From IMG/VR virus record IMGVR_UViG_3300032293_000813, positions 1 to 64,000 of that record: a stretch of 64,000 nucleotides of DNA, one strand, 5' to 3'. The stretch is from a virus. Position numbers and translations under genes: made by a program. A model generated the notes under the pieces. It did not search any database. It worked only from the letters and a program-made list of their open reading frames with translations, and had not been told where the DNA came from. Positions 30,271-58,764 of this stretch are shown one piece after another (within the stretch, counting starts at the first letter, position 1; each line of letters opens with the position of its first letter).

Positions 30271-30284
30271 ATCTCTAATAAATA

Positions 30285-39639: not shown

Positions 39640-40108
39640 ATAAACCTGTTATTTGCATTGTATATTTTGGCTCCATCCCCATATTTCCACTAAGGTGAAG
39701 TTCTCCATATCTAATTACTTTAAAATTCATTTTTCCCCATCCCACAAATGGTTCATCTAATATTTCAAAATAGTGACCACTTTTCCACGACTCCAAAAAG
39801 AAATTCAATCTACATACTTCCTCTTTACTACATCCATTCTTTTCTGAAAACTTATAGAATGTATCAAAATGAGAGGGTATTGTTTGACCCGGCATTTGTT
39901 TAATTACACTCAATGAATATTCTGAAAATATTGTTTTAGCAAAAGTATGATACTCCTCCGGTAATTCAAATGCCTGATAATACTGAGTGTTCTTATCCGT
40001 ATATCCTGCCACTATGTAAGCAATATTCTGAGCATCATAGTTATCCGAATTACCTAAACTTACGTTATCCGAAAGTGTATCAAATTTTATGTTATGTATT
40101 GTTAGCAT
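39578..40108 (-). CDS. 2OG/Fe(II) oxygenase-like cupin protein
   Basis: 176 residues. SVIKQMPGQTIPSHFDTFYKF contains H80-x-D82. RLNFFLESWKSGHYFEILDEPFVGW follows, then a distal His (H138 in GELHLSGNM). The arrangement is that of double-stranded beta-helix hydroxylases. The Arg that should hold 2OG is not clear (a Lys lies 10 residues on), so confidence is moderate. It lies between the epimerase at 40092 (17-nt overlap) and the PLP gene, suggesting hydroxylation of an intermediate. Confidence 0.5.
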   Translation of the reverse strand: MLTIHNIKFDTLSDNVSLGNSDNYDAQNIAYIVAGYTDKNTQYYQAFELPEEYHTFAKTIFSEYSLSVIKQMPGQTIPSHFDTFYKFSEKNGCSKEEVCRLNFFLESWKSGHYFEILDEPFVGWGKMNFKVIRYGELHLSGNMGMEPKYTMQITGLYEEFKRSETYTKSISKEVHY

Positions 40109-41060
40109 ATCCTAATGGGAATCCGTTTCTAAATTCAGATGTCATTCTAGGTATAAGTACTTGATAGGTTTTAATCAACTCTTCAATCCCATCATCTAAA
40201 CTATACTTAGGTTTCCAATCTGTTTTCTCTATCTTTTCATTCGATACTATATAATCTCTCTTATCAGGGTCTTCATAGAAATCCGAATAAGTGATTGCAA
40301 AATCAGGAATATATTGTTGTATCTTCTCTAATAATTCTTGTTTACTCAAATTAGCATCACTCAATCCTACATTATATACATTATGTTTCATAGTTTCATA
40401 GTTATGCAATCCATGATAGAATACTCTACTAACATCTTGTATATGAATGAAATTTCTTTTAAAATGTCTTTCAAACACAACAATATATTTGTCGGTTAAT
40501 GCTTTATAAACAAATTCGTTTACTAATAAATCCGTTCTCATTCTCAGAGATGAACCAAATACGGTTGCTAATCTAAAACAAACTGCAGATGTTGATTCCA
40601 TTAATAACTTCTCCGCTGCAACTTTACTCTCCCCATAAACTGATATAGGATTCAATGGTGATTCTTCTGTGCAAAACTTACCATCTTCACCAACACCATA
40701 TCCACTATTTGTATTTGGATATAATATCATCTGTTGGTCGGAAACTACTTTTGCGATATTTTCAATCTGATTGTAGTTTATTTCCCATGCTAACTTAGGG
40801 TCTTTTGCACACGCAGGAAATCCTACGATGGCAGCCAATGGTATTACAACATCATGTGTTCCCACTAGCTTCGTTAAAAGTGCTTCGTTCCTAACATCAC
40901 CATAGATGAAGTTATATCGTTTGTTAGCGGTAAACGCCAAAGGTGATATTTGATTGAATGATAGGTTATCTAATACTGTAACTTCGTGCCCTAAACTTAA
41001 AAAGTTATCGGTAATTACAGAACCTAAGTAACCTGCTCCTCCTGTTATTAAAATTTTCAT
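40092..41060 (-). CDS. NAD-dependent nucleotide-sugar epimerase (UDP-glucose 4-epimerase-like)
   Basis: 322 residues. Rossmann GGAGYLGSVITDNFL (7-21), VTVLDNLSFNQ, GDVRN, LAAIVG, the Ser/Thr strand LYPNTNSGYG, and the intact catalytic pair in SVYGESKVAAEKLL (Y-x-x-x-K). RHFKRNFIHIQDVSR corresponds to the usual R-D-F/Y-I-H-V-x-D. Unlike the two SDR proteins at 33830 and 34773, the catalytic Tyr is present. Probably interconverts an NDP-sugar. It overlaps the LamG gene by 4 nt. Confidence 0.85.
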   Translation of the reverse strand: MKILITGGAGYLGSVITDNFLSLGHEVTVLDNLSFNQISPLAFTANKRYNFIYGDVRNEALLTKLVGTHDVVIPLAAIVGFPACAKDPKLAWEINYNQIENIAKVVSDQQMILYPNTNSGYGVGEDGKFCTEESPLNPISVYGESKVAAEKLLMESTSAVCFRLATVFGSSLRMRTDLLVNEFVYKALTDKYIVVFERHFKRNFIHIQDVSRVFYHGLHNYETMKHNVYNVGLSDANLSKQELLEKIQQYIPDFAITYSDFYEDPDKRDYIVSNEKIEKTDWKPKYSLDDGIEELIKTYQVLIPRMTSEFRNGFPLGYANNT

Positions 41061-41794
41061 TCTCCTTTTATTTTATCTAAAATTCTATTTTGTATATCAT
41101 TTACATTATAATCTTGATATAAGAATCCATGATTCCCATTACCACTATAATCCCAAACTTTAAATCTGTTAATCTTATCTTTTAGGAATCTATATCTTGC
41201 TAAAGTAAATCTTCTAGTTATTTCACTATTAAACAAATCCATTTCTTCCTTTGATAATGCCTTTTCCATAATAACTACATCATCTATATTACCTTTATAC
41301 CACCAACTATATTGTTTCAAATGGTCTTCGATATAATGGGGTGCTCCTGCTCCTATATAGAAAGGTGTGTTATCATAATTTATAACTTCCGTTTTAAACT
41401 TATGTTCTCTATCGATTCCATTAACTCTAATTCTAAAAACTTTATTAGTATAATCAACACTATAGAATACTTCATTCCACTCTCTATCGAAATCATATGG
41501 GTCTGAAAAAGAAATATTCTCTTTATCCAATACACCTGTCAGCCATAATTGATTTGATATTACAAATAAATCATCTTGCTTATTTATAAAACATCCACTA
41601 TGAAGACCTGATTTTGAGAATACTGCATATACCTCATTACCCTTTTCTTCTATCTTAGGAGTTCTAAACTTAGCATAGGCCGTAAAATCATGCTGAAAGA
41701 ATGTTTTAAAGTTTGGTTTCTTAGATGTATTGAAAGATGAATTCTCCCATACTTTATAACTCAAATCTTTATCAAAATTTACATATTGTGTCAT
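41057..41794 (-). CDS. LamG-like (concanavalin A-type) domain protein, copy 1
   Basis: 245 residues with no signal peptide. The central part fits Laminin_G_3 domains: TAYAKFRTPKIEEKGNEVYAVFSKSG, WNEVFYSVDYTNKVFRIRVNG, TPFYIGAGAP, WWYKGNIDDVVIMEKALSKEEM. The end is the typical WDYSGNGNHGFLY. LamG folds bind sugars or proteins. The gene directly precedes a radical SAM gene downstream (TAATG overlap). The same LamG-then-radical-SAM pair is repeated at 43172-45231, so the two are probably partners. Confidence 0.75.
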   Translation of the reverse strand: MTQYVNFDKDLSYKVWENSSFNTSKKPNFKTFFQHDFTAYAKFRTPKIEEKGNEVYAVFSKSGLHSGCFINKQDDLFVISNQLWLTGVLDKENISFSDPYDFDREWNEVFYSVDYTNKVFRIRVNGIDREHKFKTEVINYDNTPFYIGAGAPHYIEDHLKQYSWWYKGNIDDVVIMEKALSKEEMDLFNSEITRRFTLARYRFLKDKINRFKVWDYSGNGNHGFLYQDYNVNDIQNRILDKIKGE

Positions 41795-43179
41795 TATCTA
41801 AGGTTTTTACATAAGTTCCAAAATTCTTCTAACTCTGGAAATGTTTTTAAGAAATCAGTTCCTCTTCTTCTATCATGCTCAGTAAAGAACCTAAAAAAAT
41901 CTTTTCTATCTCTTTTTAATGAGTGTTCTTCTTTCGGTGCAGTTACTACATCATATATTCTTCTTAATTTATGAATCTCCACATCGGTATATCCTATTGG
42001 ATTTTGCGTTCCTAATGTTTCATAGAAATCCATTAATTGCGCTTGCTCATAAACTTCTTTGTGCCAATCATCTGTTATAATGTTTGCCGCCTGATGGTTT
42101 GGATGTCTTAAATAAGAACTATCCAATCCAATTGGGTAGAACCAATATCTATCTGTGTTGGTAAATTGTTGTTTCAATTTATACACATCTTCTATTAATC
42201 CTTTATATGAAGGAATACTCAATACATTATAAGTTCCCATAATAGAAATAGTAAGTTTAGGAATCTCTTCCAATAACTCTGCGCATCTATCATACCATTG
42301 GTTATAATCAAACCCATTTCTAATATATTCCGATTGCTTACCTTTACCATCGCAAGATGTAAATAAGACAAACTCTCTAACCAATCCTTCTCCACTAATT
42401 CTTTTAATCTTCTCCTTTGCCATTTGATATAACTTATCAGGTGCACCTAAGTTAGAATTGATTGCCAACTTTAACTTTGGATTAGGATTATCGATTACAT
42501 AATCAAATACCTTAAAGGTATCTTTGTGTAAAAGGGGTTCACCACCGGTAATTCTAAAGTTTAGAAGGTCTTTATATAAATCAGGCCACCACTTCCAAAA
42601 TGCTTCCACATAAGGATTATGTTCAGTTTGCTTAAATGGTTGCTTACCATCTCTGATTAATTGGTCTAAACTATTATGTCGGGTCGAAGTTGGATACGCA
42701 CCAAATTGTTCAATCTCATCCCACCATTGTGTAGAGAATTGTGGATAACAATATGAACATTTAAAGTTACATACATTTGAGAACGATACTTCAACGTATG
42801 AAGGGTTTACATCCTCTAAGTAAGAACTATTTTTAATCTCTTCATAATAAGGTAATGCCCACTCTTCCGCAGATTTAAAAGTTCTATCTGAAAACTCATT
42901 TGAGCTATCTTCAACTTTCCAACAATAATCGCATTCATTTGGTTTGATACCTTGCAACATTTCTCTTCTCAATTCCTTTTTGTATTTGGTATTGTGAAGT
43001 GCGGATGGGTTACCTTCCAATTCTTCAGGTACAATTTTATGTAATCCAGGATGGTGGCAAGAGTGATTCTGCCCTATATGTAAATGTAGGGTAACTTGTT
43101 TCCACTTAGCTAAACAAAATCCTTGTCCAACTGAATTTAGTTTTTTCCTTATTTCGGAATATCTCTCTATATTATCCAT
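41794..43179 (-). CDS. Radical SAM enzyme (twitch-type), copy 1
   Basis: 461 residues. The radical SAM cluster motif is C-NFK-C-SY-C (C137, C141, C144) in VSFSNVCNFKCSYC. FRITGGEPLLHKDTF (about 208-222) is the SAM-binding GGEP. INSNLGAP and FVLFTSCDG follow. The N-terminal region carries C22 (GFCLAKW), C41 (HSCHHP) and C83/C86 (CDYC), which could hold another Fe-S cluster. These positions are conserved in the copy at 43837. Radical SAM enzymes of this type modify peptides or small molecules; the substrate here is unknown. The neighbouring LamG proteins and GT7-LamG fusions suggest a shared glycoconjugate target. Confidence 0.8.
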   Translation of the reverse strand: MDNIERYSEIRKKLNSVGQGFCLAKWKQVTLHLHIGQNHSCHHPGLHKIVPEELEGNPSALHNTKYKKELRREMLQGIKPNECDYCWKVEDSSNEFSDRTFKSAEEWALPYYEEIKNSSYLEDVNPSYVEVSFSNVCNFKCSYCYPQFSTQWWDEIEQFGAYPTSTRHNSLDQLIRDGKQPFKQTEHNPYVEAFWKWWPDLYKDLLNFRITGGEPLLHKDTFKVFDYVIDNPNPKLKLAINSNLGAPDKLYQMAKEKIKRISGEGLVREFVLFTSCDGKGKQSEYIRNGFDYNQWYDRCAELLEEIPKLTISIMGTYNVLSIPSYKGLIEDVYKLKQQFTNTDRYWFYPIGLDSSYLRHPNHQAANIITDDWHKEVYEQAQLMDFYETLGTQNPIGYTDVEIHKLRRIYDVVTAPKEEHSLKRDRKDFFRFFTEHDRRRGTDFLKTFPELEEFWNLCKNLR

Positions 43180-43840
43180 ATTTATTCGGTCTGGCTTTCG
43201 AAACGAAATCCATTATTTTATCGTGTTTAAATTTAACAGGCTCAGATATTAACCCATGATTACCATTTCCACTATTATCAAATATCTTAAAATTAGTTTT
43301 AGTATCCATATCCAACGAGGTATAAATTCCTTCTTCTTCTAATACAACATCTCTCTTTAAATTAAAAGATATTTCATGTGGTTCTAATGGTCTATCGTAT
43401 ATAACTAATCTACTCAATTCACCTTCCAATAAATTTTCATCGGTTGTTTTCTCATGAATATTATCAGCTAAAAAAGTAAAGTAATTATTCTCATCTACTA
43501 CTTTTGGATAGTCAGGTTTGAAATCAAAACTAACTACTTTATTTCCATTAAAATAAGTAAATTTATGTCTCTTATAATCAATGTTAATAAAGAAATCAAA
43601 TTCGTTTCCAATATCATCTACTATATAAGAATGATATGTTCCCAAATCTTGAAACTGAAAGTGTAATTTATCTTCCGAAATAATAAGTGTTTCAGTTGAT
43701 AGATTTCTTCTATATAAGTAACCTACTTTCTTTGTGCAATTATGTGAACCAGTAAATCTAATAGAATACCCTGCAACTAAGTCTGTAAACTTTTTTGTGT
43801 TGGTTTTATTATTGGATTCATTTTGTATTGTGAATATCAT
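43172..43840 (-). CDS. LamG-like domain protein, copy 2
   Basis: 222 residues. Strand pattern GYSIRFTGSHNCTKKVGYLYRR, EFDFFINIDYKRHKFTYFNGN, LLEGELSRLVIYDRPLEPHEI, ending FKIFDNSGNGNHGL. These are the same landmarks as the 41057 protein, and the two are divergent paralogues. It overlaps the downstream radical SAM gene by 8 nt and the upstream one by 4 nt. Carbohydrate binding is inferred from the fold family. Confidence 0.7.
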   Translation of the reverse strand: MIFTIQNESNNKTNTKKFTDLVAGYSIRFTGSHNCTKKVGYLYRRNLSTETLIISEDKLHFQFQDLGTYHSYIVDDIGNEFDFFINIDYKRHKFTYFNGNKVVSFDFKPDYPKVVDENNYFTFLADNIHEKTTDENLLEGELSRLVIYDRPLEPHEISFNLKRDVVLEEEGIYTSLDMDTKTNFKIFDNSGNGNHGLISEPVKFKHDKIMDFVSKARPNKYG

Positions 43841-45231
43841 AGTTTTCCTTTTCTACATTTTTTATAAAGTTCATCGAATTCAGGGAATGTTTCTAAGAAA
43901 TTAGTTCCCCTTCTCATATCATGATGTCTTACAAAGATAAAGAAATCTTTTCTATTTTTCAAGAAAGTTGAATCATCATCGTGGTTTTTCATCCATTCTG
44001 CAATTCTCTTTACTTTAGTAATTTCAATATCTGTAAATCCATAACCATCTTCCCCTACTCTTACTTGCTCATAAAAATCCATAAGTTGAGCCTGTGAGTT
44101 TACTTCCTCTATCCATTCCTTATCTAATATCTTAACACTTTGATGCGGAGGCCATCTAAGATACGAACTATCTAATAATACCGAACTACCATAGTATCTA
44201 CTAGAACTATGATATTTCTTTTTCAATTCATATACATCTCTAATCAATCCTTTATAAGATGGAACTGATAAAGCATTATATGTACTCATTATGATAATAG
44301 TAAGTTTAGGATTTTCTGTTAATAAAATGTTTATTCTTTCGATAAACAAATCATAATTAAACCCATGTCTTATATAGTTTGCCTGCTCACCATGCGCATC
44401 ACAAGATGTGAATAGAATAAACTCATTAACTCTTTCTTCATCCATTAACTTTTTAATCTTCTCTCTGAACTCATTGAATATCTTTTCAGGAGCATTTAAG
44501 TTAGTGTTAATAGAAAGATTCAATGCCTTATTAGGATTAGGTTCACTATTGATGAAATCTAATACATCAAATGTATCCTTTGCCAAAAGAGGTTCTCCTC
44601 CTGTGATTCTGAATGTATGTAAATCCTTATACAAATCCGGCCACCATTTCCAAAACGCATCAACGTATGGATTCTTTTTATTATGAGGTATCGGCATCTG
44701 GTCAGTACTCTTCAAATAATCTAAGTTATTAAAATTAGTTGAAGTAGGGTATGAACCATGTTGTTGAATTTCGTCCATCCATTGAGATGAAAACGCAGGC
44801 CCACAATATGAACATTTAAAGTTACATACATTTGAGAACGATACTTCCACATATTTTGGGTTAATATCTTTTTCACCTTTTGTTTTCAATACCTCATCGA
44901 AATATTGCATCGACCAGGGTTCGGTAGATTTATATACTCTATCAGAAAACTCATTTGAATTATCCTCTATGTTCCAACAATAATCACACTCTTTAGGTCT
45001 TAATCCTTCCATCATTTCTCTTCTTCTATTCTTCTTATAGTTTGTATTGTGAAGAGCAGATGGATTCTGTGCCACCTCTAATTCAGAAATCTTATGTGTT
45101 ACGGGGTGATGACACGAATGGTTATGACCCGTTTGCAGTTGAAGTGTAACCTGAGTCCACTTAGCTAAACAAAACCCTTTTCCAACTTTGTCTAACTTCT
45201 CTTTTGTTTTTTCGAAATGTTCGTTTAGCAT
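43837..45231 (-). CDS. Radical SAM enzyme (twitch-type), copy 2
   Basis: 464 residues, a clear paralogue of 41794. They share GFCLAKW, SCHHP, NPSALHNT, ECDYCW, FSNVCNFKCSYC (C136, C140, C143), FRITGGEPLL and FILFTSCD. The largest differences are in the middle and at the C-terminus (RRGTNFLETFPEFDELYKKC). Both keep all catalytic and extra cysteines, so both are probably active, maybe on different substrates. It overlaps the upstream GT7-LamG gene by 7 nt. Confidence 0.8.
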   Translation of the reverse strand: MLNEHFEKTKEKLDKVGKGFCLAKWTQVTLQLQTGHNHSCHHPVTHKISELEVAQNPSALHNTNYKKNRRREMMEGLRPKECDYCWNIEDNSNEFSDRVYKSTEPWSMQYFDEVLKTKGEKDINPKYVEVSFSNVCNFKCSYCGPAFSSQWMDEIQQHGSYPTSTNFNNLDYLKSTDQMPIPHNKKNPYVDAFWKWWPDLYKDLHTFRITGGEPLLAKDTFDVLDFINSEPNPNKALNLSINTNLNAPEKIFNEFREKIKKLMDEERVNEFILFTSCDAHGEQANYIRHGFNYDLFIERINILLTENPKLTIIIMSTYNALSVPSYKGLIRDVYELKKKYHSSSRYYGSSVLLDSSYLRWPPHQSVKILDKEWIEEVNSQAQLMDFYEQVRVGEDGYGFTDIEITKVKRIAEWMKNHDDDSTFLKNRKDFFIFVRHHDMRRGTNFLETFPEFDELYKKCRKGKL

Positions 45232-46667
45232 TTACAATTTATTAATACTGAATTATTACCAATGTCTTCTATATTCAATAGTTCGTATTTCAAACTATTC
45301 ATCCCATCATTCTGCCAATTATATTTTCCCTGCTGCATCTCTAACACATATCTCTTCTCATTTCTTGCAGTTGTTGCCCCTTTCTTCCATTTACCATTTA
45401 CCAATCCTTCGGTTTCATGTGGTAAACATTCAAACTTACCATTTCTTCTATAAGGTATAACGGTTGATGGTATCTCCATTTTCTCTTTGGTAAATGTAAC
45501 ATTATGCATTTTACCATGATTACCATTTCCCGTTTTATCTTCAACCATCTCATCGATGAAAGAATCAAAATCATAATGAAGTTGTAAACCATCTTCTTCT
45601 AAATGAAATGGAATATCTGCTACCTCACCATCCGTCATACATCTATCATACATTCTAACTTCAGCAATTTCTCCCTTAAAAAACTTGTTCGGTTGATTTT
45701 GATTTATAGAAGGAGATGTTCCCATATAAAATCCTTCCGTTCCATATCTCTTTAAATCACCACTATATTCCATTGGAGAAGTTACACCTGTTCCAAATCT
45801 AGCATCTGTTTCTCTTCCGTTTAAATAGAAGTGAATCTTTTTATTATAAGCATCCACTTTCAAAGTTACCCATGTCCATAAATTCTCATATCGCTTCATC
45901 CACATATATTGCATCTCCTTCTCACTATTCCATAACATCGAAGTAAATGCTCTACTATTGTTATATGATAATCCCCAATCATATCCTGGTCTTCTTAAGA
46001 TAGGATATTCCCAAAATCTTCTATTCTCATCTCCGATTAAGTAGATAGGAATCTTTTCTTCTTGTTGGTGTGCCTTTACTAATACTGAAATAGTATGAGA
46101 ACGATTACACATAAATCGGATAGAACGAGATTGTGCGGTTTCTATATAGGATTTTATTCCATCAAAATTAGCCACACTAAATTCATTCTGTGGTTTGATA
46201 TATGTTTGGTCTGCCATCCCATTTAATGCACATCTCCAAAACAAATCATCATCTTCCATACCCCAATCCCAATAATCATTTGAGTAACCATTGGTTTTGT
46301 AAACTTGTTCTTTTGTAAACAATACAGCGCCCCCAAAATACTCCTCATATTTGAGGTTATAATCTGTTTGAGATATTCTTACCGCCAAATGTTTTGGGTT
46401 CTCAGGATTGTAACTATAATCACACGAATCATCTTCTGGTATCATATCAATATCATGCCATACGATATAATCACATCCATCCTTAAATGCCACATCCGCT
46501 GCAATGTTTTTCATCTTACCTCTGTTAAAAAGTAAGTTATCACATTGGTGTGCAAAATATATTTTATGCTCAATACCTCTCTCTTCCAAAAATTTGTGAA
46601 CTCTCGGTGAGAACTGAGCTAAATGTTCTTCTCTGTTTCTATATGGTACACATACCCCTAACTTCAT
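45225..46667 (-). CDS. GT7-type glycosyltransferase fused to LamG and a C-terminal domain, copy A
   Basis: 480 residues in three parts. Residues 1-165 are a galactosyltransferase-7-like GT-A domain: CVPYRNREEHL, LLFNRGKMKN, VWHDIDMIPED (D-x-D for metal), YFGGAVLFTKE, and NGYSNDYWDWGMEDDDLFWR. The last matches the EDDD of beta-1,4-galactosyltransferases. Residues about 170-385 are LamG (LWTWVTLKVDAYNKKIHFYLNG; MVEDKTGNGNHGK). Residues about 400-480 are a small domain ending GMNSLKYELL...VLINCKC, seen also in copies B and C. No signal peptide or membrane segment, so it acts in the cytoplasm. The acceptor is unknown. Confidence 0.8.
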   Translation of the reverse strand: MKLGVCVPYRNREEHLAQFSPRVHKFLEERGIEHKIYFAHQCDNLLFNRGKMKNIAADVAFKDGCDYIVWHDIDMIPEDDSCDYSYNPENPKHLAVRISQTDYNLKYEEYFGGAVLFTKEQVYKTNGYSNDYWDWGMEDDDLFWRCALNGMADQTYIKPQNEFSVANFDGIKSYIETAQSRSIRFMCNRSHTISVLVKAHQQEEKIPIYLIGDENRRFWEYPILRRPGYDWGLSYNNSRAFTSMLWNSEKEMQYMWMKRYENLWTWVTLKVDAYNKKIHFYLNGRETDARFGTGVTSPMEYSGDLKRYGTEGFYMGTSPSINQNQPNKFFKGEIAEVRMYDRCMTDGEVADIPFHLEEDGLQLHYDFDSFIDEMVEDKTGNGNHGKMHNVTFTKEKMEIPSTVIPYRRNGKFECLPHETEGLVNGKWKKGATTARNEKRYVLEMQQGKYNWQNDGMNSLKYELLNIEDIGNNSVLINCKC

Positions 46668-48100
46668 AACTCTACTGAAATCATTTTAGCCTTTTCAGAT
46701 AATTCTTTTTCTTCTACCTTTTTATATCTTAATGTATTCAATCCTTCAATCGAATAGAATAACACATCGTCTTTAATTGAATTGAATCTTAACTGATTCT
46801 TTCTAGTCTCTTCCCAAACCCATCTATTTCCTTCTACACTATTAGATGAATGTTTAAGTGTTTTGAACTTACAATCCTTTTTAGTTGGAATCGTAACCTC
46901 TACCATAAACTTACTATTCATCAATGTGTTAGCCTGGCAATTGATAATCTCAGCATCAAAGTTGTTACCGGATATATCAATCAATTTATCCTTTCTATAA
47001 TGTCTGAAATCGTAATATGTTTTTAAACTCTTAGATGATTTATATTTACCAAAATTATTCAATAGGGATTTCTTAGCTGAATCTTTATATATTTGATTGA
47101 TTTCAGGCAAACTTAATGCCTTATCAAATACCGCAAACTCAGAAATCAATCCTTTGAAATAATAATTCTCATAATTCTTAGATGGATTGGCAACTCCTAA
47201 ATAGAAATCGGTTACATTGTAATCATACATATCTTCTATAAATTCCTCACCTATTAATTTACCATTGATAAACAACTCAATACTTTTACTACGATAGTTT
47301 CGTTTGATAACTGCGTGTACCCACATATCAGGACTAATATCAGATGTTATACTTCTACTCTTTTCTTCTTTATCCCATATATCCAATTTGTATCTATTGA
47401 AACTATTATAGGATAGAGAGAAGTTAAAACCAGGAATAGAGAATATTGTGTATTCATCGTATTCTCTGTTTGAGTTATTAACTAAATCCTCTGCTTTAAA
47501 TTTAATAGAGATACTGAAATCATCATTAAGTATCTTTTTAAATTGAGGAAATGGAATACTAACAAATGAATCAATTCCGTTAAAGTAGAAATAATTCAAT
47601 ACAAAGTTTTCATCCTCTATACCAAATACTTTTTTATCCAATGTAAGATTACAACTCTCACATCTTTTTAAAAGGTCATCATCCTCAAAACCCCAACCCC
47701 AATATTCGTTAGAGTAACCATTAATAATTTTGAAATCTAATTTACTCAATATAGTAACTCCACCAAAATAGTTATAGAAACTTTCTTCGCCATTAAGAGT
47801 GTTAGCTAAGTGAGTTGGTACATCACAATACGAATAATCCGCATCGATAGGTAACATATCCACATCATGAAAACAATAGTAATCAAAATCAGGTCCACTT
47901 TCTTTATAACCTACATTCAACAACTTACCTCTATTAAAAGGTTTATCATCTTTTTGTTCAATGACAAAAACCTTGTAATCAACTTTAGTTCCTAAATATT
48001 CTTCAATATATGGAATAAAGATGTTAAGGTGAGATTCCCTATTTCTGTAAGGAACTATTATTGCTAATTTCTTAGTTGTTGTTTTACTGCGGTCTTTCAT
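46664..48100 (-). CDS. GT7-LamG-C-terminal domain glycosyltransferase, copy B
   Basis: 478 residues. GT7 part: AIIVPYRNRESHLNIF, PFNRGKLLNVGY, FHDVDMLPIDADY, YFGGVTILSKLDF, NGYSNEYWGWGFEDDDLLKR, with all catalytic landmarks intact. LamG part about 190-390 (VHAVIKRNYRSKSIELFINGK; YFKGLISEFAVFDKALSLPEI; LIDISGNNFDAEI). The C-terminal domain ends GLNTLRYKKVEEKELSEKAKMI. It overlaps copy A downstream by 4 nt and the small gene at 48084 by 17 nt. Confidence 0.8.
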   Translation of the reverse strand: MKDRSKTTTKKLAIIVPYRNRESHLNIFIPYIEEYLGTKVDYKVFVIEQKDDKPFNRGKLLNVGYKESGPDFDYYCFHDVDMLPIDADYSYCDVPTHLANTLNGEESFYNYFGGVTILSKLDFKIINGYSNEYWGWGFEDDDLLKRCESCNLTLDKKVFGIEDENFVLNYFYFNGIDSFVSIPFPQFKKILNDDFSISIKFKAEDLVNNSNREYDEYTIFSIPGFNFSLSYNSFNRYKLDIWDKEEKSRSITSDISPDMWVHAVIKRNYRSKSIELFINGKLIGEEFIEDMYDYNVTDFYLGVANPSKNYENYYFKGLISEFAVFDKALSLPEINQIYKDSAKKSLLNNFGKYKSSKSLKTYYDFRHYRKDKLIDISGNNFDAEIINCQANTLMNSKFMVEVTIPTKKDCKFKTLKHSSNSVEGNRWVWEETRKNQLRFNSIKDDVLFYSIEGLNTLRYKKVEEKELSEKAKMISVEL

Positions 48101-48566: not shown

Positions 48567-48815
48567 TTATTTATTTTTTAATTTATTTTCTGTTTTGTGT
48601 TGAAAGAATCCTGTTGGAAATGGAGTAGCCTGCCTCGATGAATAATATTCTCTTAATAATTCTAATGCAGAGAATATTATCGGTTGTACATATGAGAAGG
48701 TTTGAAGTGTTTTATTCTTTTCAAAAACTTCTAATGCTTCCGCTACTCTTTCCGCTTTACTAACAAATTCTTCGTTGTTAATAAGTTTTTTTACTATAGA
48801 ACTATCTTTATCCAT
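48567..48815 (-). CDS. Small hypothetical protein (82 aa)
   Basis: Helical, no recognised motif: VKKLINNEEFVSKAERVAEALEVFEKNKT then a more hydrophobic segment SYVQPIIFSALELLREYY. Its start overlaps the upstream GT7-LamG copy C by 22 nt and its stop is 1 nt from the twin gene. Likely real because of coupling in the operon. Function unknown. Confidence 0.5.
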   Translation of the reverse strand: MDKDSSIVKKLINNEEFVSKAERVAEALEVFEKNKTLQTFSYVQPIIFSALELLREYYSSRQATPFPTGFFQHKTENKLKNK

Positions 48816-50281
48816 GTTGCTTTTTCATTTATTTGTTCTTCTGATAAAATCTTATAATTTAAATAATTCAATCCTACCTCTTTTGTATCCAATCTATTTG
48901 TTAATACTTCGTTGAAATATATTTGAGAGTTTTGTACAATATCCGGGTCCCAACTATAAAACTTCTCCGTTATTTGGTCATCACCTTCGTGGATTAAAGA
49001 TTGATACTTACCTAATATTCTAGATGGAACTGATAAACGGGATGTTTTTGGTATCGTATCCTTTTTAAGATACTCCGAATAGTTTCCGAATTCAGGTCCA
49101 TATATCTTAACGTGATTAAGAGTTAATGAATCATCTAAAATAAAATCTCTATATGTTTTATCAAACTTAATATTCAATACAGGCTCTAAATCTGTATTCT
49201 TTTTCTCATCATTATATCCTTCTAAATAAAGGTTATCAATTTCTCGTTGTTCTAACACATAATCAAATAACAATACGTTAGCCATCTTACCATTATATCT
49301 AGCGGTATTCAAACTACTACATCCTAAGAATAAGTGTTCGTTTGTATAATCATATAAAGGTGTTACGATGTAAGGTTGTTGGTCTCCTGTATAACTTATC
49401 TTAACTGAGTTTAAATACATCTCAATTAATTCCTTATTATAATCAACAACAAATACTACATGATTCCAAACACCTGGTTCATATTTCTTATATGCAAAAC
49501 AATACTGTTTATCATTATCATAAACATTCACTCTTATTGTACCATCTTTCTGTAATGATATACCGGTATTAAATCCTTTCCAAGCAATTAAGTATTCCTC
49601 TTCTTCTACCATATCAGAATTGAACCATAATGCGGCAGTAAAACTATCTCTCGTAATATCTCTTAATTGAGCATTAGGAAATATCTTTAGGTACAAATCG
49701 TTACCACTAAAGTCCGCATAGTTTACCTGCTCAATATATTTCTTATCTGTTATCTTAATCTTTTCAAATTCATAATAAGAATCTATGCGAGGAAAAATTG
49801 TTTCTTCATCTAATTCAATTTCGTTTATTCTACATCTGTGAAGTAAATCTAAATCAGCAAACCCCCATCCCCAATACTCATTTGAAAATCCATTTATCTT
49901 TTCGAAATCTTCTTTACTAAACATAACAACACCACCCATATATTCTAAGTAAGGTAACTTAAACTTATGAGCAGATACTCTAGTTGCCATATGAACGGGA
50001 TATCCACCAATGTGAATGTAATTGTAATCACAATCATCACTTACAGGCAGCATATCAATGTCGTGGAAACAGAAATAATCAAATTTATCTTTCAATAAAG
50101 AGAATCCTATATTACAGATTTTTCCATAGTTAAATGGTTTATCATCGGTTTGCTCAACAATAATAATTTCATACTCTACATCTTTGTTCTTAAAGAACTC
50201 AATCATGTGAGGTACGAAAGTATCTAACTGCTCTCGTCTATCCCTATAGGGTACTATTATCGCTATCTTTTTTCCGTACAT
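48794..50281 (-). CDS. GT7-LamG-C-terminal domain glycosyltransferase, copy C (altered EDDD motif)
   Basis: 495 residues with the same three-part plan as copies A and B. GT7 part: AIIVPYRDRREQLDTF, PFNYGKICNIGF, FHDIDMLPVSDD, YMGGVVMFSKED, NGFSNEYWGWGFADLDLLHR. The usual EDDD reads ADLD here, so two of four acidic residues are lost while the one equivalent to the proposed catalytic base of beta4GalT1 remains. LamG about 200-400 (VWNHVVFVVDYNKELIEMYLNS; NGKMANVLLFDYVLEQREI). C-terminal domain LNYLNYKILSEEQINEKATWI. Activity may be changed or lost. Confidence 0.75.
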   Translation of the reverse strand: MYGKKIAIIVPYRDRREQLDTFVPHMIEFFKNKDVEYEIIIVEQTDDKPFNYGKICNIGFSLLKDKFDYFCFHDIDMLPVSDDCDYNYIHIGGYPVHMATRVSAHKFKLPYLEYMGGVVMFSKEDFEKINGFSNEYWGWGFADLDLLHRCRINEIELDEETIFPRIDSYYEFEKIKITDKKYIEQVNYADFSGNDLYLKIFPNAQLRDITRDSFTAALWFNSDMVEEEEYLIAWKGFNTGISLQKDGTIRVNVYDNDKQYCFAYKKYEPGVWNHVVFVVDYNKELIEMYLNSVKISYTGDQQPYIVTPLYDYTNEHLFLGCSSLNTARYNGKMANVLLFDYVLEQREIDNLYLEGYNDEKKNTDLEPVLNIKFDKTYRDFILDDSLTLNHVKIYGPEFGNYSEYLKKDTIPKTSRLSVPSRILGKYQSLIHEGDDQITEKFYSWDPDIVQNSQIYFNEVLTNRLDTKEVGLNYLNYKILSEEQINEKATWIKIVL

Positions 50282-51135
50282 TATATTGAAACTATGTGTT
50301 TAGATAGTTTATTCCAATTACTGAAAGATACGAAGGATTTTTCAGATTTCCAAGTGAATTCTTTGTATTTTTCCAAATCTATACAATATCCATAATCCTC
50401 TATACCATTCAACATTATCTGATATTCTCTTGAGTAAGAATAATCTTGTCCAATCTTTGCTACCGCTTTCAATCTATCTACTACACTCTTATCCCATTTG
50501 AAATGGTGAACTTGTACAAATCCCTTATTAATTGGATATCTCAATGGGTGATTCCAACCTTGCCATCTCCAAGTTGATTGCCCTTCTATTTGAGCATAAT
50601 GTTGACCGGATGTTACTTCAATTCTACCTTTACATAATGTAACTTTATTTGGACAGGCTCCACTCATTGGGTATCTAAAAAATGAACTGATAGGAAATGC
50701 TTCCCATAAATCCGTATTCTCATCTACAAATGGAAAACTACCATCTTCTCCAATCTTATCTATAAATCCACCGGTTACAAATTCCCATCCATTATGTTCA
50801 CACTCTTCTATTATAGAATTTACATCATCCCAATACAAATGTAATTCATCATCATCCGCTACTATCCACCAATCGTTGGGATATAAGTTCTTTATCTCAT
50901 TGTAGAAATGTGTTACTGAAATCCAATTGAATGCATCCGATTCTCTTTCGTGCACAATACATCCAAATTCTTCAGCAATCTCATTAACTCTATCGAATGA
51001 TTCTTTATTGTTTACATCAAGAGTTCTGTAATTAACCAAATGAATTTCACTCACTATATCTTTATAATGAGATAACATCTGTCGTAGAGTATTTGTTCTA
51101 TGACCAGTAACGGTTATTAATCTAGGTTTTTTCAT
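50281..51135 (-). CDS. Glycosyltransferase family 2-like protein
   Basis: 284 residues. Strand-loop start RLITVTGHRTNTLRQMLSHY, then IHLVNYRT, a DWWIVADDDELHLYWDD segment (acidic metal-binding motif of GT-A enzymes), and further on QHYAQIEGQSTWRWQGWNHPLRYPINKGFVQVHHFKWD. The last resembles GT2/GT92-like transferases that end with an H-F-K/R-W segment. It overlaps the MTase gene (4 nt) and copy C (1 nt). Donor and acceptor unknown. Confidence 0.7.
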   Translation of the reverse strand: MKKPRLITVTGHRTNTLRQMLSHYKDIVSEIHLVNYRTLDVNNKESFDRVNEIAEEFGCIVHERESDAFNWISVTHFYNEIKNLYPNDWWIVADDDELHLYWDDVNSIIEECEHNGWEFVTGGFIDKIGEDGSFPFVDENTDLWEAFPISSFFRYPMSGACPNKVTLCKGRIEVTSGQHYAQIEGQSTWRWQGWNHPLRYPINKGFVQVHHFKWDKSVVDRLKAVAKIGQDYSYSREYQIMLNGIEDYGYCIDLEKYKEFTWKSEKSFVSFSNWNKLSKHIVSI

Positions 51136-51890
51136 TTTCTTCGTATGAGTGTTAATCCAGTAGATGATGGTTTATTTTTTATGATACCAAAATTAAATAA
51201 GTTAAATACTTCCCAATCTTTACTATCTTTCAATTCTTTTACAAATTGAATAGGCCCACTCCAATCATCGTGGTCACCTCTATCTTTTATTTCATTTGTT
51301 ATAATATAGTTATCAGCATATTTCGAATCAGTATCGTGTATTGAGATGATACCATTTTCTGATAATATTTGTGAGTATAAATCAAAATCTTCCTTAACGT
51401 TTTCATATGAATGTCCTGCATCTATGTGTAAATAATCAATCTTAATATCGTTTAATACAAAGTAATTGTGAAATGCCTCTTCGGTAGTTGTGTTAATAAT
51501 TCTAGGATGAAAAGTTCTTCTGTAAAATGATTCTTCTGCAAACCAATCTACATTACCACCAATACCATTCATTGCATCAACTACATAAGTTGTTCCAATA
51601 TCTCCCCAATTATAATCAGCATTTCCTTCGAAGATTCCTTGCCTATGTAAATCGTATCTAGATTGTGTCATTAGACGAGGAATAAATCCTCCTCCACTAC
51701 CTAAACATACACATACTTTAGCTCTCATATATTGTATAATAGAATATATGATTAAACCATCGCCTAAGTGTACATCGGTTGCTCCGTGAGACCATCTATA
51801 GGGAACAGGATGCTCCTCTTCTTCACCTCTAAAATCAAACTCTAAATTGTTAGTGAGGTACTTCTTTATGTAGTTTAAGTCTTGTAACAT
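51132..51890 (-). CDS. Class I SAM-dependent methyltransferase (CmcI/Methyltransf_24-like)
   Basis: 252 residues. VCVCLGSGGGFIPRLMTQ is the SAM Gly loop. IDYLHIDAGHSYENVKEDFDLYSQIL and GIISIHDTDSKY are the late motifs with D-A-G-H and H-D-T-D, typical of TylF/CmcI-like O-methyltransferases and sugar methyltransferases. It is the first gene of the long accessory operon, with a Bacteroidota-type promoter 30 nt upstream. It is a distant relative of the 14726 protein (IDGDHNYE). Probably methylates a sugar of the same glycan. Confidence 0.75.
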   Translation of the reverse strand: MLQDLNYIKKYLTNNLEFDFRGEEEEHPVPYRWSHGATDVHLGDGLIIYSIIQYMRAKVCVCLGSGGGFIPRLMTQSRYDLHRQGIFEGNADYNWGDIGTTYVVDAMNGIGGNVDWFAEESFYRRTFHPRIINTTTEEAFHNYFVLNDIKIDYLHIDAGHSYENVKEDFDLYSQILSENGIISIHDTDSKYADNYIITNEIKDRGDHDDWSGPIQFVKELKDSKDWEVFNLFNFGIIKNKPSSTGLTLIRRK

Positions 51891-52926: not shown

Positions 52927-55900
52927 TTATATCGAACCACTAAGTTGTGCCTCTAAATAAATAACTTTATCGTTTAATTCTTGAATAGCCTTAATCATTG
53001 GTGCAATTAACTCAGTATAATTTAATCCCATATACCCTTCTTTTTGATAATTAATATCTCTTTCAACCGATTCCCAATTAGATTGTGTTTTAAATTTTTC
53101 AATCTGCTCATCTGTATATTCTAATGATGAAGTATGTATAAATGAAACATCATCTGTTCCATGTCCATATTCTGATAACGATGAACTTATTTCTTGTGCC
53201 ACAAAACCATAATGATATCTAGGTGTTTTTGATTCATTATATTTAAATTTCTTTGGTTTTAATTTATTAAGAAATTCTAATCCCAAATCACTATCCTCAA
53301 TTGAATTTTTTAATCTTTCATCCGAAATATTTAATGCATTATTCGTCCAAACAGTTCTCCATCTATTACCCGTAGTTCCTAAATCATTCGTATTACCAAC
53401 GAATGGATGCCATACACCATTACAATAACTAAATTGACCACTACCATTAGAATCAAAATAAACAGTACCTTTTAGTTTTATCTTATCCCCGACTCTGTTC
53501 ATCTTTATATAATCATTTGCACTATCTGCAATTATTATTCCTTTATCCGATATTTCAGCAAGAGATACTGCTTTATTATATGTTTTACTACCCTGTGATT
53601 CTTGAGAGATTGTATAATCTATGTATCCTGAATTTATAAATTTCATTACCTCAGTAACGGGTTTCATATAATATGTTCCAGCTGCAGGAAATGTAAATGA
53701 TTGGAATTGGCTCATCAATCCACTGTACACCGTACCCGAATCCATTGCGGTGAATGAATTAGCTGAATTTACATACATTGTTCCATAGACAGTTCCACCT
53801 GCATCGACAACATTTACATAACTATATAGGAATAAATATCCAGAAAAAGCTGGACTTGTTCCGTATTGTATATACGATGACCCCCAATTATATTTAACAG
53901 TAACAACATATGTTCCTGCTGCAGGAACCGAGAATGAAGTTGTTGTACCACTAGTCGTTACATTACCGGATGTAGTTATACCATATTCAGTAACAAGTAC
54001 TTGATTTATAGTTGCAGAAAAATTATCCGCTGATTCTGGGTCTGTAAGTGAACCAATTTTTATATTTAATTTTGTTTCACCTGTTGTATCCGCGTATTCA
54101 ATATTTGGTGCACTCGGATTTAGTGTGATTTTTCCCGTTGAAGATGAACCTATTAACTTTCCTACATTATCAACTACCCATCCACCGATACTACCTGCGG
54201 TTGCAGTTACGGTACCGGTAATGTTTGCAGTAGTTGCACTAAGTACACCTGCAGTAGATACACTAAATGGAGCCGATGCGAATGAATTATTACCTAACCA
54301 TATTCCAGTAGTATCTGCTTTAAAGATATTAGGTGCAGTTCCAATTGCAATACTACCACCGGTTATACTTGCTCCACTAACAGTTCCACCACTAACAGTT
54401 CCACCACTAATAGTACCACCTGAAATTGTTGCAACGGATGTAATGTTTCCACTAAAGTATCCAGATGATGCACTTATGATACCATTAACGCTTAAAGAAC
54501 TACCATCCCATTTTAAAAACCCACTAGCTCCAACTAATGACATCCTATAATTGCCTGAATCATTACCTAACCAAATACCCGTTGAACCATATGTTTTAGT
54601 TGTTTGCCCAACTGAAATATAAGGATACGCATTTCCACCATAAATTGTTACGTTCGATGCATTTCCCGCTGCATTAGTACCAACATTTATTGTGTTTTGT
54701 ACATAAGATTCTTCTGCAATTAAAAGACCCGTTGCTACTGCACTAAAAGAAGTAAATTCTTCCCAAGTTGCATCCCCTCCATTAGTTGGGGTTGAGGTAG
54801 CGTTAATCGTTGTTAAATCGGCTCCTCTGAAAGCGTAGAATTTTCCACTATGTTTTACCGCATCTTTTTTAGTTGCACTATTATTTAAAACAAATCCAGG
54901 TTCCGCTGCTTTCTTTGTTGCATAATCACCGATGTATAAAAGACCAGGACCCTGTCTACCATCTTTAACAGGAGTTACTTTATGAGTTCGAACTTCACTT
55001 CCCGCTACTCCTTCTGAATTTACATAGTTAACCGTTATAGTAGTTGTAGTACCTGCATCAGTTGTAGGAGTGGTAGGCGTAACGGTTCCATTATTATTGT
55101 TTGTACCACCTGTTACAGATACATAAAATGTACTATTACCATAAGGAGAACTATCATCATAGCTATAATCAGAAGATTCTTTTGCTTTAATTGTTACCAC
55201 CGCCGGAGCCGTATATCCTCCGGAAGATGATGCAACGTTTTGCCCTTCAGGTGTTATCGTTACTAATGTAGTAGGTGCCGCATTTTTAACTTTCGATAAT
55301 GATATACTATCTGTTACTACTCTAGTCGTTCCCTCACTATCTGTTATAGTAGCACTAACTGCAACGGTTGTACTATCAGTTGCCGATGCCAATGTTCTAC
55401 CATTTAATGTAATTATTCCTGTTGCAGGTGCTGTTCCGATTGTTGCTATATCGGCAGATGTTGCATTTAAAGTGGTTATTGTTTTTGTTGTAGTTGAACC
55501 ATCATATGTTTCACTCACTGTCACAACTGAATTACTAAATGCTCCAATTTGTGCACCCGTTGATTTCCCACTTACACTTTGTATTTTGTTTGTTATCTCT
55601 ATCTTTAATACTGGTGCCGCTTTTCTTGCCTTTGTTACAGATGATTTTAATGAACCAGTTCCATAAGAACCTTCACCAAATGTATAATGAACTTCATCCA
55701 ACGTTAATTGAACCGAATCACTACCGCTCACCATATTATTAAGTGTAACAGTGTTGGTTGATATCGCAGTAGTAATTGTAGTAACAGGAACTTGTGATAC
55801 GGATTTTATTCTATTAAATCTATCTGTTCCATTTTCAGTTGCAGTTACATTTAATGTTGTATATCCCGCAGTTGTATTACCACCTGCTACCGCACCAATA

Positions 55901-58764
55901 CTATTTGCGGATAATGTTTGAGATGTTGGATTAACATTCAAATCAATTGTAGGAACTGAATTTCTTTGTTTCTTAAATGTAATTGTCTTTGTTGCAGTTT
56001 CAATTACACCTAATGCATCTCTGTAGTTTATATTTACCGTTACTAAACCTTGCTCATAAGAGTTGTTTGTAAAAGCACTAATACCAACATCAATTCCATC
56101 CGCCGCTAAAGAACCCGTCGTAGTTGTAGCTAAACATCCACTTACCGCAGTTGTAATCCAAAATCTATTTGTAGTAGAAGATGCTGCTGGTACAATTGCT
56201 TCTCCACCAACATTCACCGTCACTTTTGCTTTTTGTGAAGTAAATTGTGCTGATTCCGTTACATCATTATTAGCAGTTGAAAACTGAGATGCATACAATG
56301 ATGATTTTGCTCTTAAAGTAAAATTATCATTTGATAGATTAACGGCTAATGGAGAATTAATAACAACCGGGTCAATAGTTACCGAACCCGTATATGCAAC
56401 TCCTCTTCTATCTAATTGTTGGAACACATATGTAGTAGAGTTATATCCGCTTCCTGTTACAAATTTATCAACTGGAGTAGTGCCAGCATCCAATACAAAT
56501 GTTATCGGCGATGTGTTCGAAGACCCACTTAATGAGGCGGTTATGTTTCCACCAATTTTAGATTGTGTAATAGGATATACGGATGATGATGGTAAATTTA
56601 ATCTATCAACTGATAATACTATTCTTTGATTAGATGGGTCTGGCTCTAATGTAGTTCTCTTATATGTAAATTGATTTTTATTTGCTCTTACTAAAACTTG
56701 TTTATCTTTCTCACCATCGGATTGTCTAAATATTGTAAAGTTTTTAGTAGCCGGTAATGATGATGATGTTTCAGTTAAAGTATAAACAATTCTATCTACA
56801 ATAACTGATGTTGCAGCTGGTGGGTTTGCATGTCTACTTCCTGTGAAAGATGAAAGTGTTAATACTGCACTTCCACTATAAAGATTTTCAGAATAACTTC
56901 CAAATGCACCAGGATATGGAGATAAAACCGCTGAGTATGATGCGGGTGGAATAGGAACACCACCGGTATCAAATGCCTGAGATGTAATCAACAAATCACC
57001 CAATACTCTATTCTTACTAATTGAGATATTAACTTGTTGTGAGGCGGGTATTGCAATTAAATCCGAATCAAATGAGAAATAATTTTTATCAGCATCTACT
57101 ATAATTTCTTTATCAATTAATTTTATATTTCCACTAACAAATTGTTTAGTAGCAAATACATCGATAGGAACATAGTTATTATTTATATCAAAAAATTCAA
57201 ACTTAAAATCAAATGTTTCTTGTTCCAACTGTCTATCAATTGGAATTATAAAATTAAATGAATCAGGTGAATATCCTAATTCGTTTGATGATTTTAAACT
57301 AACTGAACCAACTTGCCAATAAGCGTTTGCAGTAGAAGTAGTTGATTTAAAATTAAGAGTCCAATCATCTGTTCTGTACGGTATAAAATTAATCGAACGC
57401 TTTACTGAGTTTCTAAATTCATTAGAGCCTGTTAGATTTTCTAAACTCTGAGTTAGATAATAATTTGAAATACCACTTCCACTTCTTAAAGTAGAAGTTA
57501 GATATACACTCAAAGAATCATTAGCATTACTTGATGCGGAATCATATAAAGTGTAATATTCTAATGTGTATTCACTACCACTATACAATCTTAAATCATT
57601 TCCTAAATTTGAAGAAATGGTATTATTTTTAAATTTAACCGCTTTGTATATCTTAGAAGAATCTAATGATGTGTTTGCACTACTAGCGGTATTCCAATAT
57701 GTGTTCCAATTTGTACCATCTAAATAAGAACCGGTAAAAAATCCAACTCTTTCAATAGAGCCAGAAATTACATTTGTTAATATTTCCGCTGAATCAACTC
57801 GTGTATCCTGAATAGTAGCATAATCTAAATTACTTGCTCTACTCTTTTTAAATACTTTCAATCTTTCAACATCACCGACAAATGTAGCTAAGTTACTTAC
57901 AGAAAATCTACCGAATGAACCTAATATTGGAGATTCGGTTGGGTTGGTAAAATATTGATAATTTAATGCATATGATGCACCGGTAAAAGATTGTATAGTT
58001 CCTTCTGAGCCTGTGTAAGGAACTCTCACAACAACCGTATTTTGATTCAGATATTCTAATACATCTGCATCTTGTATCCCAGTTCCAGCTACAGAAATAG
58101 TAGTTGCGCCATCTTTAAAATCACCCCCTTCATTTTCTATATAGTATCGTATAGCTCCTCTATATCCTCTTACAAATGTTCCTTCAGATGGAGTTAAAGC
58201 ATATCCTCTTACGGTAGAAGATGATTGTGCAGTTGATACTAAAGTCTTTGCATAAAAACTCTCATCTAATTCTTCAATTTCAATTTCAGGTCTTTTGACA
58301 AACCTTACTCTCGTTTCGTTTGGAATATTTTTATTTATCTTTACATTTCTCTCCCACTTTACATTATATATACCTTCCCAATCAGCAGGGACAGGTTGCT
58401 CAAATCCATTCTCATCCACATAACTCCTAAGCTCACCTAATATAGTAATCTTACCGATACCGATTGGAGTGTCTTGATAAACATGAGCAGTTATTAATTT
58501 AGATAACCCCTCATAATATTCTGGAATACCTTCACCTGCTTGCACAAATAATGGATTACCCTCTACATCCAATACCTCTATTTTAATTTCAGTATCCCCT
58601 TTTAAATAAGGTGAACCTTCTATAAGAAACCCATTTTTACCAGAGGTGAATGTATCAGCTAATTCTGATATTCTAAAATAATTAGATGAACCTATCGTAT
58701 CATTAATAAAAACTTGAAAGTTTTGTAGGTTAAGTAAAGGTGATATTTTTTCGATTTTTGCCAT
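52927..58764 (-). CDS. Giant tail-fibre/tailspike-like protein with C-terminal S74 self-cleaving chaperone
   Basis: 1945 residues. The N-terminal 300 residues form a folded attachment domain (LQNFQVFINDTIGSSNYFRISELADTF). The middle 900 residues are Ig/Big-like beta repeats rich in Thr/Ser/Val (KITNKIQSVSG, VTKARKAAPVLKI). Residues about 1430-1480 carry GGT(I/V)S pentapeptide repeats. The end (about 1812-1945) is peptidase S74: NISDERLKNSI with the Ser/Lys pair (S1814, K1819), then KFKYNESKTPRYHYGFVAQE, VSFIHTSSLEY and a trimer helix (IKAIQELNDKVIYLEAQL). S74 domains fold trimeric fibres and then cut themselves off. Confidence 0.9.
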   Translation of the reverse strand: MAKIEKISPLLNLQNFQVFINDTIGSSNYFRISELADTFTSGKNGFLIEGSPYLKGDTEIKIEVLDVEGNPLFVQAGEGIPEYYEGLSKLITAHVYQDTPIGIGKITILGELRSYVDENGFEQPVPADWEGIYNVKWERNVKINKNIPNETRVRFVKRPEIEIEELDESFYAKTLVSTAQSSSTVRGYALTPSEGTFVRGYRGAIRYYIENEGGDFKDGATTISVAGTGIQDADVLEYLNQNTVVVRVPYTGSEGTIQSFTGASYALNYQYFTNPTESPILGSFGRFSVSNLATFVGDVERLKVFKKSRASNLDYATIQDTRVDSAEILTNVISGSIERVGFFTGSYLDGTNWNTYWNTASSANTSLDSSKIYKAVKFKNNTISSNLGNDLRLYSGSEYTLEYYTLYDSASSNANDSLSVYLTSTLRSGSGISNYYLTQSLENLTGSNEFRNSVKRSINFIPYRTDDWTLNFKSTTSTANAYWQVGSVSLKSSNELGYSPDSFNFIIPIDRQLEQETFDFKFEFFDINNNYVPIDVFATKQFVSGNIKLIDKEIIVDADKNYFSFDSDLIAIPASQQVNISISKNRVLGDLLITSQAFDTGGVPIPPASYSAVLSPYPGAFGSYSENLYSGSAVLTLSSFTGSRHANPPAATSVIVDRIVYTLTETSSSLPATKNFTIFRQSDGEKDKQVLVRANKNQFTYKRTTLEPDPSNQRIVLSVDRLNLPSSSVYPITQSKIGGNITASLSGSSNTSPITFVLDAGTTPVDKFVTGSGYNSTTYVFQQLDRRGVAYTGSVTIDPVVINSPLAVNLSNDNFTLRAKSSLYASQFSTANNDVTESAQFTSQKAKVTVNVGGEAIVPAASSTTNRFWITTAVSGCLATTTTGSLAADGIDVGISAFTNNSYEQGLVTVNINYRDALGVIETATKTITFKKQRNSVPTIDLNVNPTSQTLSANSIGAVAGGNTTAGYTTLNVTATENGTDRFNRIKSVSQVPVTTITTAISTNTVTLNNMVSGSDSVQLTLDEVHYTFGEGSYGTGSLKSSVTKARKAAPVLKIEITNKIQSVSGKSTGAQIGAFSNSVVTVSETYDGSTTTKTITTLNATSADIATIGTAPATGIITLNGRTLASATDSTTVAVSATITDSEGTTRVVTDSISLSKVKNAAPTTLVTITPEGQNVASSSGGYTAPAVVTIKAKESSDYSYDDSSPYGNSTFYVSVTGGTNNNNGTVTPTTPTTDAGTTTTITVNYVNSEGVAGSEVRTHKVTPVKDGRQGPGLLYIGDYATKKAAEPGFVLNNSATKKDAVKHSGKFYAFRGADLTTINATSTPTNGGDATWEEFTSFSAVATGLLIAEESYVQNTINVGTNAAGNASNVTIYGGNAYPYISVGQTTKTYGSTGIWLGNDSGNYRMSLVGASGFLKWDGSSLSVNGIISASSGYFSGNITSVATISGGTISGGTVSGGTVSGASITGGSIAIGTAPNIFKADTTGIWLGNNSFASAPFSVSTAGVLSATTANITGTVTATAGSIGGWVVDNVGKLIGSSSTGKITLNPSAPNIEYADTTGETKLNIKIGSLTDPESADNFSATINQVLVTEYGITTSGNVTTSGTTTSFSVPAAGTYVVTVKYNWGSSYIQYGTSPAFSGYLFLYSYVNVVDAGGTVYGTMYVNSANSFTAMDSGTVYSGLMSQFQSFTFPAAGTYYMKPVTEVMKFINSGYIDYTISQESQGSKTYNKAVSLAEISDKGIIIADSANDYIKMNRVGDKIKLKGTVYFDSNGSGQFSYCNGVWHPFVGNTNDLGTTGNRWRTVWTNNALNISDERLKNSIEDSDLGLEFLNKLKPKKFKYNESKTPRYHYGFVAQEISSSLSEYGHGTDDVSFIHTSSLEYTDEQIEKFKTQSNWESVERDINYQKEGYMGLNYTELIAPMIKAIQELNDKVIYLEAQLSGSI
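54376..54420 (-). repeat. 15-bp tandem repeat in the S74 fibre gene
   Basis: Three units of actaacagttccacc: 54376-54390 and 54391-54405 are identical, and 54406-54420 differs at two bases. They encode the G-G-T-V-S pentapeptide run. In-frame units allow length change without frameshift. Confidence 0.8.

Follow-up and report, generated by a model that had tools for sequence, protein, structure and literature searches.

The window, that is, the whole stretch of 64,000 nucleotides analyzed here, comes from an IMG/VR contig of 164,499 b whose terminase, portal, and major head genes are of T4 type. An ORF check finds a quartet of genes on its (-) strand, two encoding radical SAM (rSAM) enzymes and two encoding stand-alone LamG proteins, and confirms the coordinates, the alternating order, and the 1- to 8-nt overlaps described in the initial annotation: 1 nt (41794), 8 nt (43172-43179), and 4 nt (43837-43840). 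At its borders the quartet overlaps by 7 nt an upstream gene (45225) for a GT7 glycosyltransferase (GT) that itself carries a LamG domain (GT7-LamG), and by 4 nt the downstream SDR gene (41057-41060). Transcription runs from GT7-LamG through rSAM 43837, LamG 43172, rSAM 41794, and LamG 41057 to the SDR gene, each gene being named here by its lower coordinate; the first of these, GT7-LamG 45225, is preceded by GT7-LamG 48794, the small genes 48567, 48332, and 48084, and GT7-LamG 46664, in that order. SDR, RmlC-type, and GT genes surround the pairs, with sugar-nucleotide genes downstream of the quartet, and the tail-fibre gene sits just upstream of the glycan genes. The features, in order of transcription, are as follows.

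52927..58764, (-) strand: tail fibre protein with Peptidase_S74 chaperone (PHROG 1980 tail fiber; Pfam PF13884)
51132..51890, (-) strand: methyltransferase (Methyltransf_24) of a conserved upstream block, found in 68/81 loci
48794..50281, (-) strand: third GT7-LamG glycosyltransferase (Pfam)
46664..48100, (-) strand: second GT7-LamG glycosyltransferase (Pfam)
45225..46667, (-) strand: B4GalT-like GT7 with LamG apparently inserted in the catalytic domain (Pfam Glyco_transf_7N/7C and Laminin_G_3)
43837..45231, (-) strand: rSAM enzyme 1, N_Twi_rSAM, 464 aa, first pair
44977..45171, (-) strand: N-terminal twitch cysteines of enzyme 1 (C21, C40, C82, C85; sequence alignment)
44803..44826, (-) strand: CxxxCxxC [4Fe-4S]/SAM site of enzyme 1 (C136, C140, C143)
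43172..43840, (-) strand: stand-alone LamG, 222 aa, partner of enzyme 1
41794..43179, (-) strand: rSAM enzyme 2, N_Twi_rSAM, 461 aa, second pair
42922..43116, (-) strand: N-terminal twitch cysteines of enzyme 2 (C22, C41, C83, C86; codons located)
42748..42771, (-) strand: CxxxCxxC site of enzyme 2 (C137, C141, C144; codons located)
41057..41794, (-) strand: stand-alone LamG, 245 aa, partner of enzyme 2
41600..41602, (-) strand: H65 of LamG 41057 (GxHxG)
41159..41161, (-) strand: K212 of LamG 41057
40092..41060, (-) strand: SDR, NAD-dependent sugar epimerase/dehydratase, after the last LamG (Pfam Epimerase, 1.1e-33)

Both enzymes are full-length members of the NCBIfam family NF033640 (N_Twi_rSAM), scoring 328 bits (enzyme 1) and 324 bits (enzyme 2) against a curated cutoff of 170 bits and covering the model from position 2/3 to position 398 of 398. 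They are 56% identical, and their earlier description as paralogues with a CxxxCxxC site and four further cysteines holds: all seven cysteines are invariant across 53 aligned relatives. The N-terminal twitch cysteines are presumed to carry an auxiliary Fe-S cluster. Compared with solved structures, the AlphaFold2 model of rSAM 43837 (pLDDT 93.3, pTM 0.90) is closest to anSME, a protein-modifying rSAM (2.5e-4), with weaker matches to viperin, AprD4, MoaA, SuiB, and BlsE; they identify the superfamily, not the substrate. On the window rSAMs no RRE/PqqD domain was matched and no RiPP-maturase family exceeded its curated cutoff. Among ORFs of at least 60 aa no short RiPP precursor gene adjoins an rSAM, the neighbor being a LamG gene of 190-280 aa. 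We found no reaction assigned to the N_Twi_rSAM family.

The two stand-alone LamG proteins are related, as initially proposed, and their likeness is weak (34% over 65 aa, E=4e-5; 19% in a multiple alignment). LamG 41057 matches Pfam Laminin_G_3 with 32.9 bits (8.6e-8), above the Pfam cutoff of 27.6, whereas LamG 43172 falls below it (14.9 bits, 0.031) and is recognized by the family profile (2.4e-17). The AlphaFold2 model of LamG 41057 (pLDDT 89.8, pTM 0.87) is a predicted beta-sandwich for which Foldseek returned 194 PDB matches at E<=0.001 with ConA-like folds, including a Bacteroides carbohydrate-binding protein (TM 0.64), pentraxins, CBM40 modules, and laminin-G domains, as well as enzymes with such a domain, e.g., dimethylformamidase. 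From fold similarity, the stand-alone LamG may bind carbohydrate. Two residues appear as candidate contacts with the enzyme or a ligand, or as a candidate modified site: K212, kept in 56/58 stand-alone LamGs and near-invariant only in these rSAM partners, with no fixed residue there in GT7-LamG (the conserved Lys codon of LamG 43172 lies at 43286-43288), and H65, present in 46/58, with Asp at the equivalent position in 33/36 GT7-LamG. A DxSGNGNHG motif at the LamG C terminus raised the suggestion of a circular permutation; a Pfam search with C-terminal LamG fragments gave no match.

GTs with a LamG domain stand at each such locus, a feature that the initial annotation did not mention and that is probably the key to function. 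The upstream GTs of the window match Glyco_transf_7N and 7C at 1e-17 to 2e-24 and the B4GalT1 profile at 1e-46, and a GWGxEDDD-type motif is present (WDWGMEDDD at residue 133 of GT 45225). The match to B4GalT1 is strong over the first 152 residues, and the piece that follows the LamG is collinear with the B4GalT1 C terminus, its score alone being not significant. Since the flanking pieces are collinear with B4GalT1, the second weakly so, the LamG appears to be inserted in the GT fold, and judged by its position it appears to lie on the acceptor side.

We examined gene order around viral relatives of the enzymes and of the GTs; each scan comprised the best 80 matches, and the frequencies given here describe those best matches and not phages in general. 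Nearly all of the rSAM-drawn loci (the best 80 viral loci, from 453 relatives) have the order GT7-LamG, GT7-LamG, rSAM, LamG. Of 88 stand-alone LamG ORFs in these 80 loci, 84 lie directly 3' of an rSAM, and the neighborhood search that had been proposed thus yields 84/84 for the internal ones; the remaining 4 are found at the ends of contigs and are probably what is left of a truncated GT7-LamG. The rSAM-LamG junctions range from -22 to +5 nt, and LamG-like genes below the profile cutoff also stand 3' of rSAMs in three loci (L070, L074, L082). In a second draw, made with the upstream GT, relatives of GT7-LamG 45225 adjoin an rSAM in all 80 loci kept. This draw contained 28 rSAMs with no identical counterpart in the first set, and 26 of them precede a LamG, which was recognized by profile in 24 cases and by eye in 2. 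The pairing, seen across a large group of uncultured T4-like phages, is not due to chance. Searches for natural fusions returned a GT7-LamG-rSAM fusion in L054, where comparison with L029 indicates an in-frame deletion of at least ~75 nt at the junction; we give it little weight because it is found on a single contig and may be an assembly effect. Among bacterial rosetta fusions, L095 is an rSAM-rSAM fusion and L105 looks like a start-calling artefact.

The pairing has clear limits within the enzyme family. We find the rSAM without LamG in about two dozen bacterial loci, mostly from Bdellovibrionota, and in a scan built on bacterial and LamG-less phage rSAMs, 67 of the best 80 viral loci with close homologues have neither LamG nor GT7-LamG. 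rSAM homologues without LamG neighbors, named in the initial annotation as evidence against the partnership, are therefore widespread in the family and not in the paired clade. In a tree of 145 rSAMs, LamG pairing is confined to one 64-row clade (100*), and the pairing state changes 3 times, compared with 45.7 times in shuffles. Of the 64 rows, 58 have a LamG, 5 have GT7-LamG but no LamG, and 1 has neither; members of the clade without LamG are found in L046/L047, L061, the second rSAM of L070, L264, and L266. Because close homologues without LamG are common, LamG is the partner of one rSAM clade and not of the enzyme family. Stand-alone LamG occurs essentially only in loci with an upstream GT7-LamG; LamG tracks the GT7-LamG context. 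In many LamG-less phages the rSAM is preceded by a protein of ~310 aa whose [VI]DGDN motif suggests a GT; it matched nothing in Pfam, PHROGs, the PDB, or a profile comparison with GT7.

Within the paired clade the two proteins diverge in step. Over 48 dereplicated single-pair loci, pairwise distances of rSAM and LamG correlate at 0.83, compared with 0.23 for rSAM and GT7-LamG; in the 26 loci where the SDR could be included the values are 0.90 (LamG), 0.27 (GT7-LamG), and 0.68 (SDR). As a yardstick, the catalytic and LamG parts of one GT7-LamG polypeptide correlate at 0.89. LamG evolves faster than its enzyme (mean distance 0.76 vs. 0.34). The rSAM and LamG trees agree: pair 43837/43172 groups with L021/L074/L082 in both and pair 41794/41057 with L009/L010/L012/L015, and groupings in the multi-pair loci L074 and L082 are likewise alike. 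From these trees the rSAM-LamG pair is inherited as a unit. The dedicated partnership first proposed from the window is thus supported by synteny in 80 loci and a second draw, by correlated divergence, and by matching trees.

The further proposal that the pair was duplicated as a unit fares less well. The window pairs group with two different single-pair clades, so a better fit is that a second pair was acquired or that the duplication is old; forcing the window rSAM lineages to be sisters costs 38 log units (p-AU 0.07), and a local tandem duplication, disfavored but not firmly rejected at that value, is not supported by the trees. Two pairs from two clades would probably mean two different modifications in the window phage.

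Co-inheritance could also arise if LamG served the glycan cluster as a general-purpose lectin or chaperone and never contacted the rSAM, the gene order being inherited operon structure. Phage operons do move as blocks, the SDR correlates with the rSAM too, and LamG is confined to GT7-LamG loci, all of which this explanation would accommodate. It does not account for the low correlation of the GT7-LamG gene, which is equally close on the other side of the rSAM, or for the paralogous pairs retaining the matching LamG type, and we consider it rather unlikely.

Near-constant pairing, evolution in step, and occurrence only beside LamG-bearing GTs argue that LamG is probably a dedicated helper of the rSAM. 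In the mechanism that we propose, the two would form a two-component unit in which LamG serves as a clade-specific recognition subunit, acting in trans to dock the N-twitch rSAM onto an acceptor. That acceptor, whether a glycan or a glycosylated protein, would be the one that the upstream B4GalT-like transferases elongate; the catalytic fold of these transferases appears to contain a LamG of the same kind. The rSAM would then make a radical change on the acceptor, e.g., an epimerization, dehydration, or cross-link, thereby altering phage fibres or host surfaces. The physical docking, the glycan-linked substrate, the chemistry, and the biological role are parts that we infer. The pairing, the co-divergence, the GT7-LamG restriction, the intact cysteines, and the predicted lectin-type fold count in favor of a recognition role in which LamG would guide the rSAM to whatever acceptor the LamG-type GTs use; the LamG-less close homologues, the few LamG-less members of the clade, and the weak correlation of the stand-alone LamG with the LamG of the GT (0.37), which leaves a shared acceptor a conjecture, count against it. 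On balance we give this reading an even chance of being right.

A serious rival, which we nevertheless judge unlikely, makes LamG the substrate: the rSAM would modify the folded LamG, perhaps in the K212 region (FKVWD), and the product would be an effector or a virion decoration. One-to-one pairing with a fast-evolving partner recalls maturase-precursor pairs, K212 and H65 are specific to the rSAM-partner LamGs, and the best fold match of the enzyme modifies proteins, as twitch-type rSAM enzymes frequently do. The LamG alignment, however, has no invariant column or tail (W214 is found in 35/58), and because close rSAM homologues occur without any LamG, LamG cannot be the general substrate of the rSAM family. 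That the rSAM acts instead on a small molecule, a nucleotide sugar or precursor from the SDR and RmlC-type genes, with LamG belonging to a separate step, would agree with the sugar-nucleotide genes downstream and the distant fold matches to AprD4, BlsE, and viperin, but is improbable, since a one-to-one co-diverging lectin-type partner is unexpected for a soluble small substrate and the rSAM is found in many contexts without SDR/RmlC-type genes.

The proposed recognition subunit has partial counterparts in known systems. PqqE, with PqqD/RRE, is an rSAM maturase whose substrate is presented by a small separate partner in trans, an arrangement like the one proposed here; in the window, however, the partner has a ConA-like LamG lectin fold, no precursor peptide is seen, and the setting is a glycan cluster. 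The GT27 polypeptide GalNAc-transferases contain a GT and a lectin domain in one protein, the lectin domain guiding the choice of acceptor, and we propose the like for GT7-LamG; the difference is that here the lectin-like domain is a LamG that appears to interrupt a B4GalT-like fold, and that another copy is encoded separately next to an rSAM. Within NF033640, the two window enzymes share the full length of the model, the CxxxCxxC site, and the N-terminal twitch cysteines, and the LamG-paired clade forms a distinct sub-branch, most sampled phage and bacterial relatives outside it being without LamG. A similar setting is that of T4-like pelagimyophages, in which rSAM cassettes lie in the host-recognition cluster, among GTs near tail fibres (PMC7029224); LamG is not mentioned in that text. 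A search of 50,697 cultured-phage records gave no match to GT7-LamG or LamG, and the rSAM of cultured phages (Vibrio phages) reaches only ~25% identity. The initial annotation knew of no such partnership from the literature, and among open-licence full texts we likewise found no paper on rSAM-LamG pairing.

Environmental T4-like phages and Bdellovibrionota frequently encode N_Twi_rSAM enzymes, and a strict, co-diverging partner provides a handle on what one clade of them acts on. The pairing ties the rSAM to an unusual LamG-bearing, B4GalT-like pathway adjoining the tail fibre. We advance more tentatively, with somewhat less than even confidence, the broader picture of a two-component rSAM system in which a lectin-type LamG, shared in kind with the GTs, hands the enzyme an already assembled glycoconjugate of the phage or its host, so that radical chemistry would act on polymeric sugars or glycoproteins and stacked enzyme-lectin pairs would diversify decoration. 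If true, this would add lectin-guided substrate recognition in trans to radical SAM biology and would show a way in which phages diversify the decoration of surfaces or fibres.

Beyond the N_Twi_rSAM (NF033640) radical SAM (rSAM) enzymes and their stand-alone LamG partners, the window encodes several further proteins, listed here by position:

27049-30288: protein of 1079 aa that combines a cytidylyltransferase-like domain with DUF5661
31087-32436, 35699-36919 and 36903-38171: three paralogues of one large family
38156-38785: piece of an E1-alpha-like thiamine-diphosphate enzyme, 209 aa
45225-46667, 46664-48100 and 48794-50281: three B4GalT-like glycosyltransferases
48084-48317 and 48332-48565: a pair of 77-aa proteins that resemble each other, encoded between the glycosyltransferase genes

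In all three glycosyltransferases, a LamG domain appears to be inserted within the catalytic fold (GT7-LamG), and a search of cultured phages returned no match to the 45225 enzyme. The family of the 77-aa proteins is found in 64 of the 81 loci, as is that of the three paralogues, for which a Pfam search gave no match; the E1-alpha-like piece keeps a length of ~211 aa in 46/81.

Among the related loci fetched for comparison, four (L074, L079, L082, and L021) have their rSAM genes in arrays of 4 to 9 that mix several subtypes. Another type of rSAM, extended at its C terminus (L012:13072-14616 and similar genes; 508-522 aa), lies downstream in the related loci, without LamG, and a single gene of a Bdellovibrio MAG (L095:9989-12493) codes for a fusion of two rSAMs, one N_Twi_rSAM-like and the other divergent. 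Many of the close phage homologues that lack a LamG neighbor are directly preceded by a conserved protein, with no assignment from Pfam, PHROGs, or PDB:

L216:3027-3956, with up to 56 similar neighbor genes: protein of ~310 aa that bears a [VI]DGDN motif

In bacterial LamG domains, the motif FKVWDYSGNGNHG usually lies close to the domain start. The stand-alone LamG protein at 41057-41794 has it at the C terminus; this protein may be circularly permuted.
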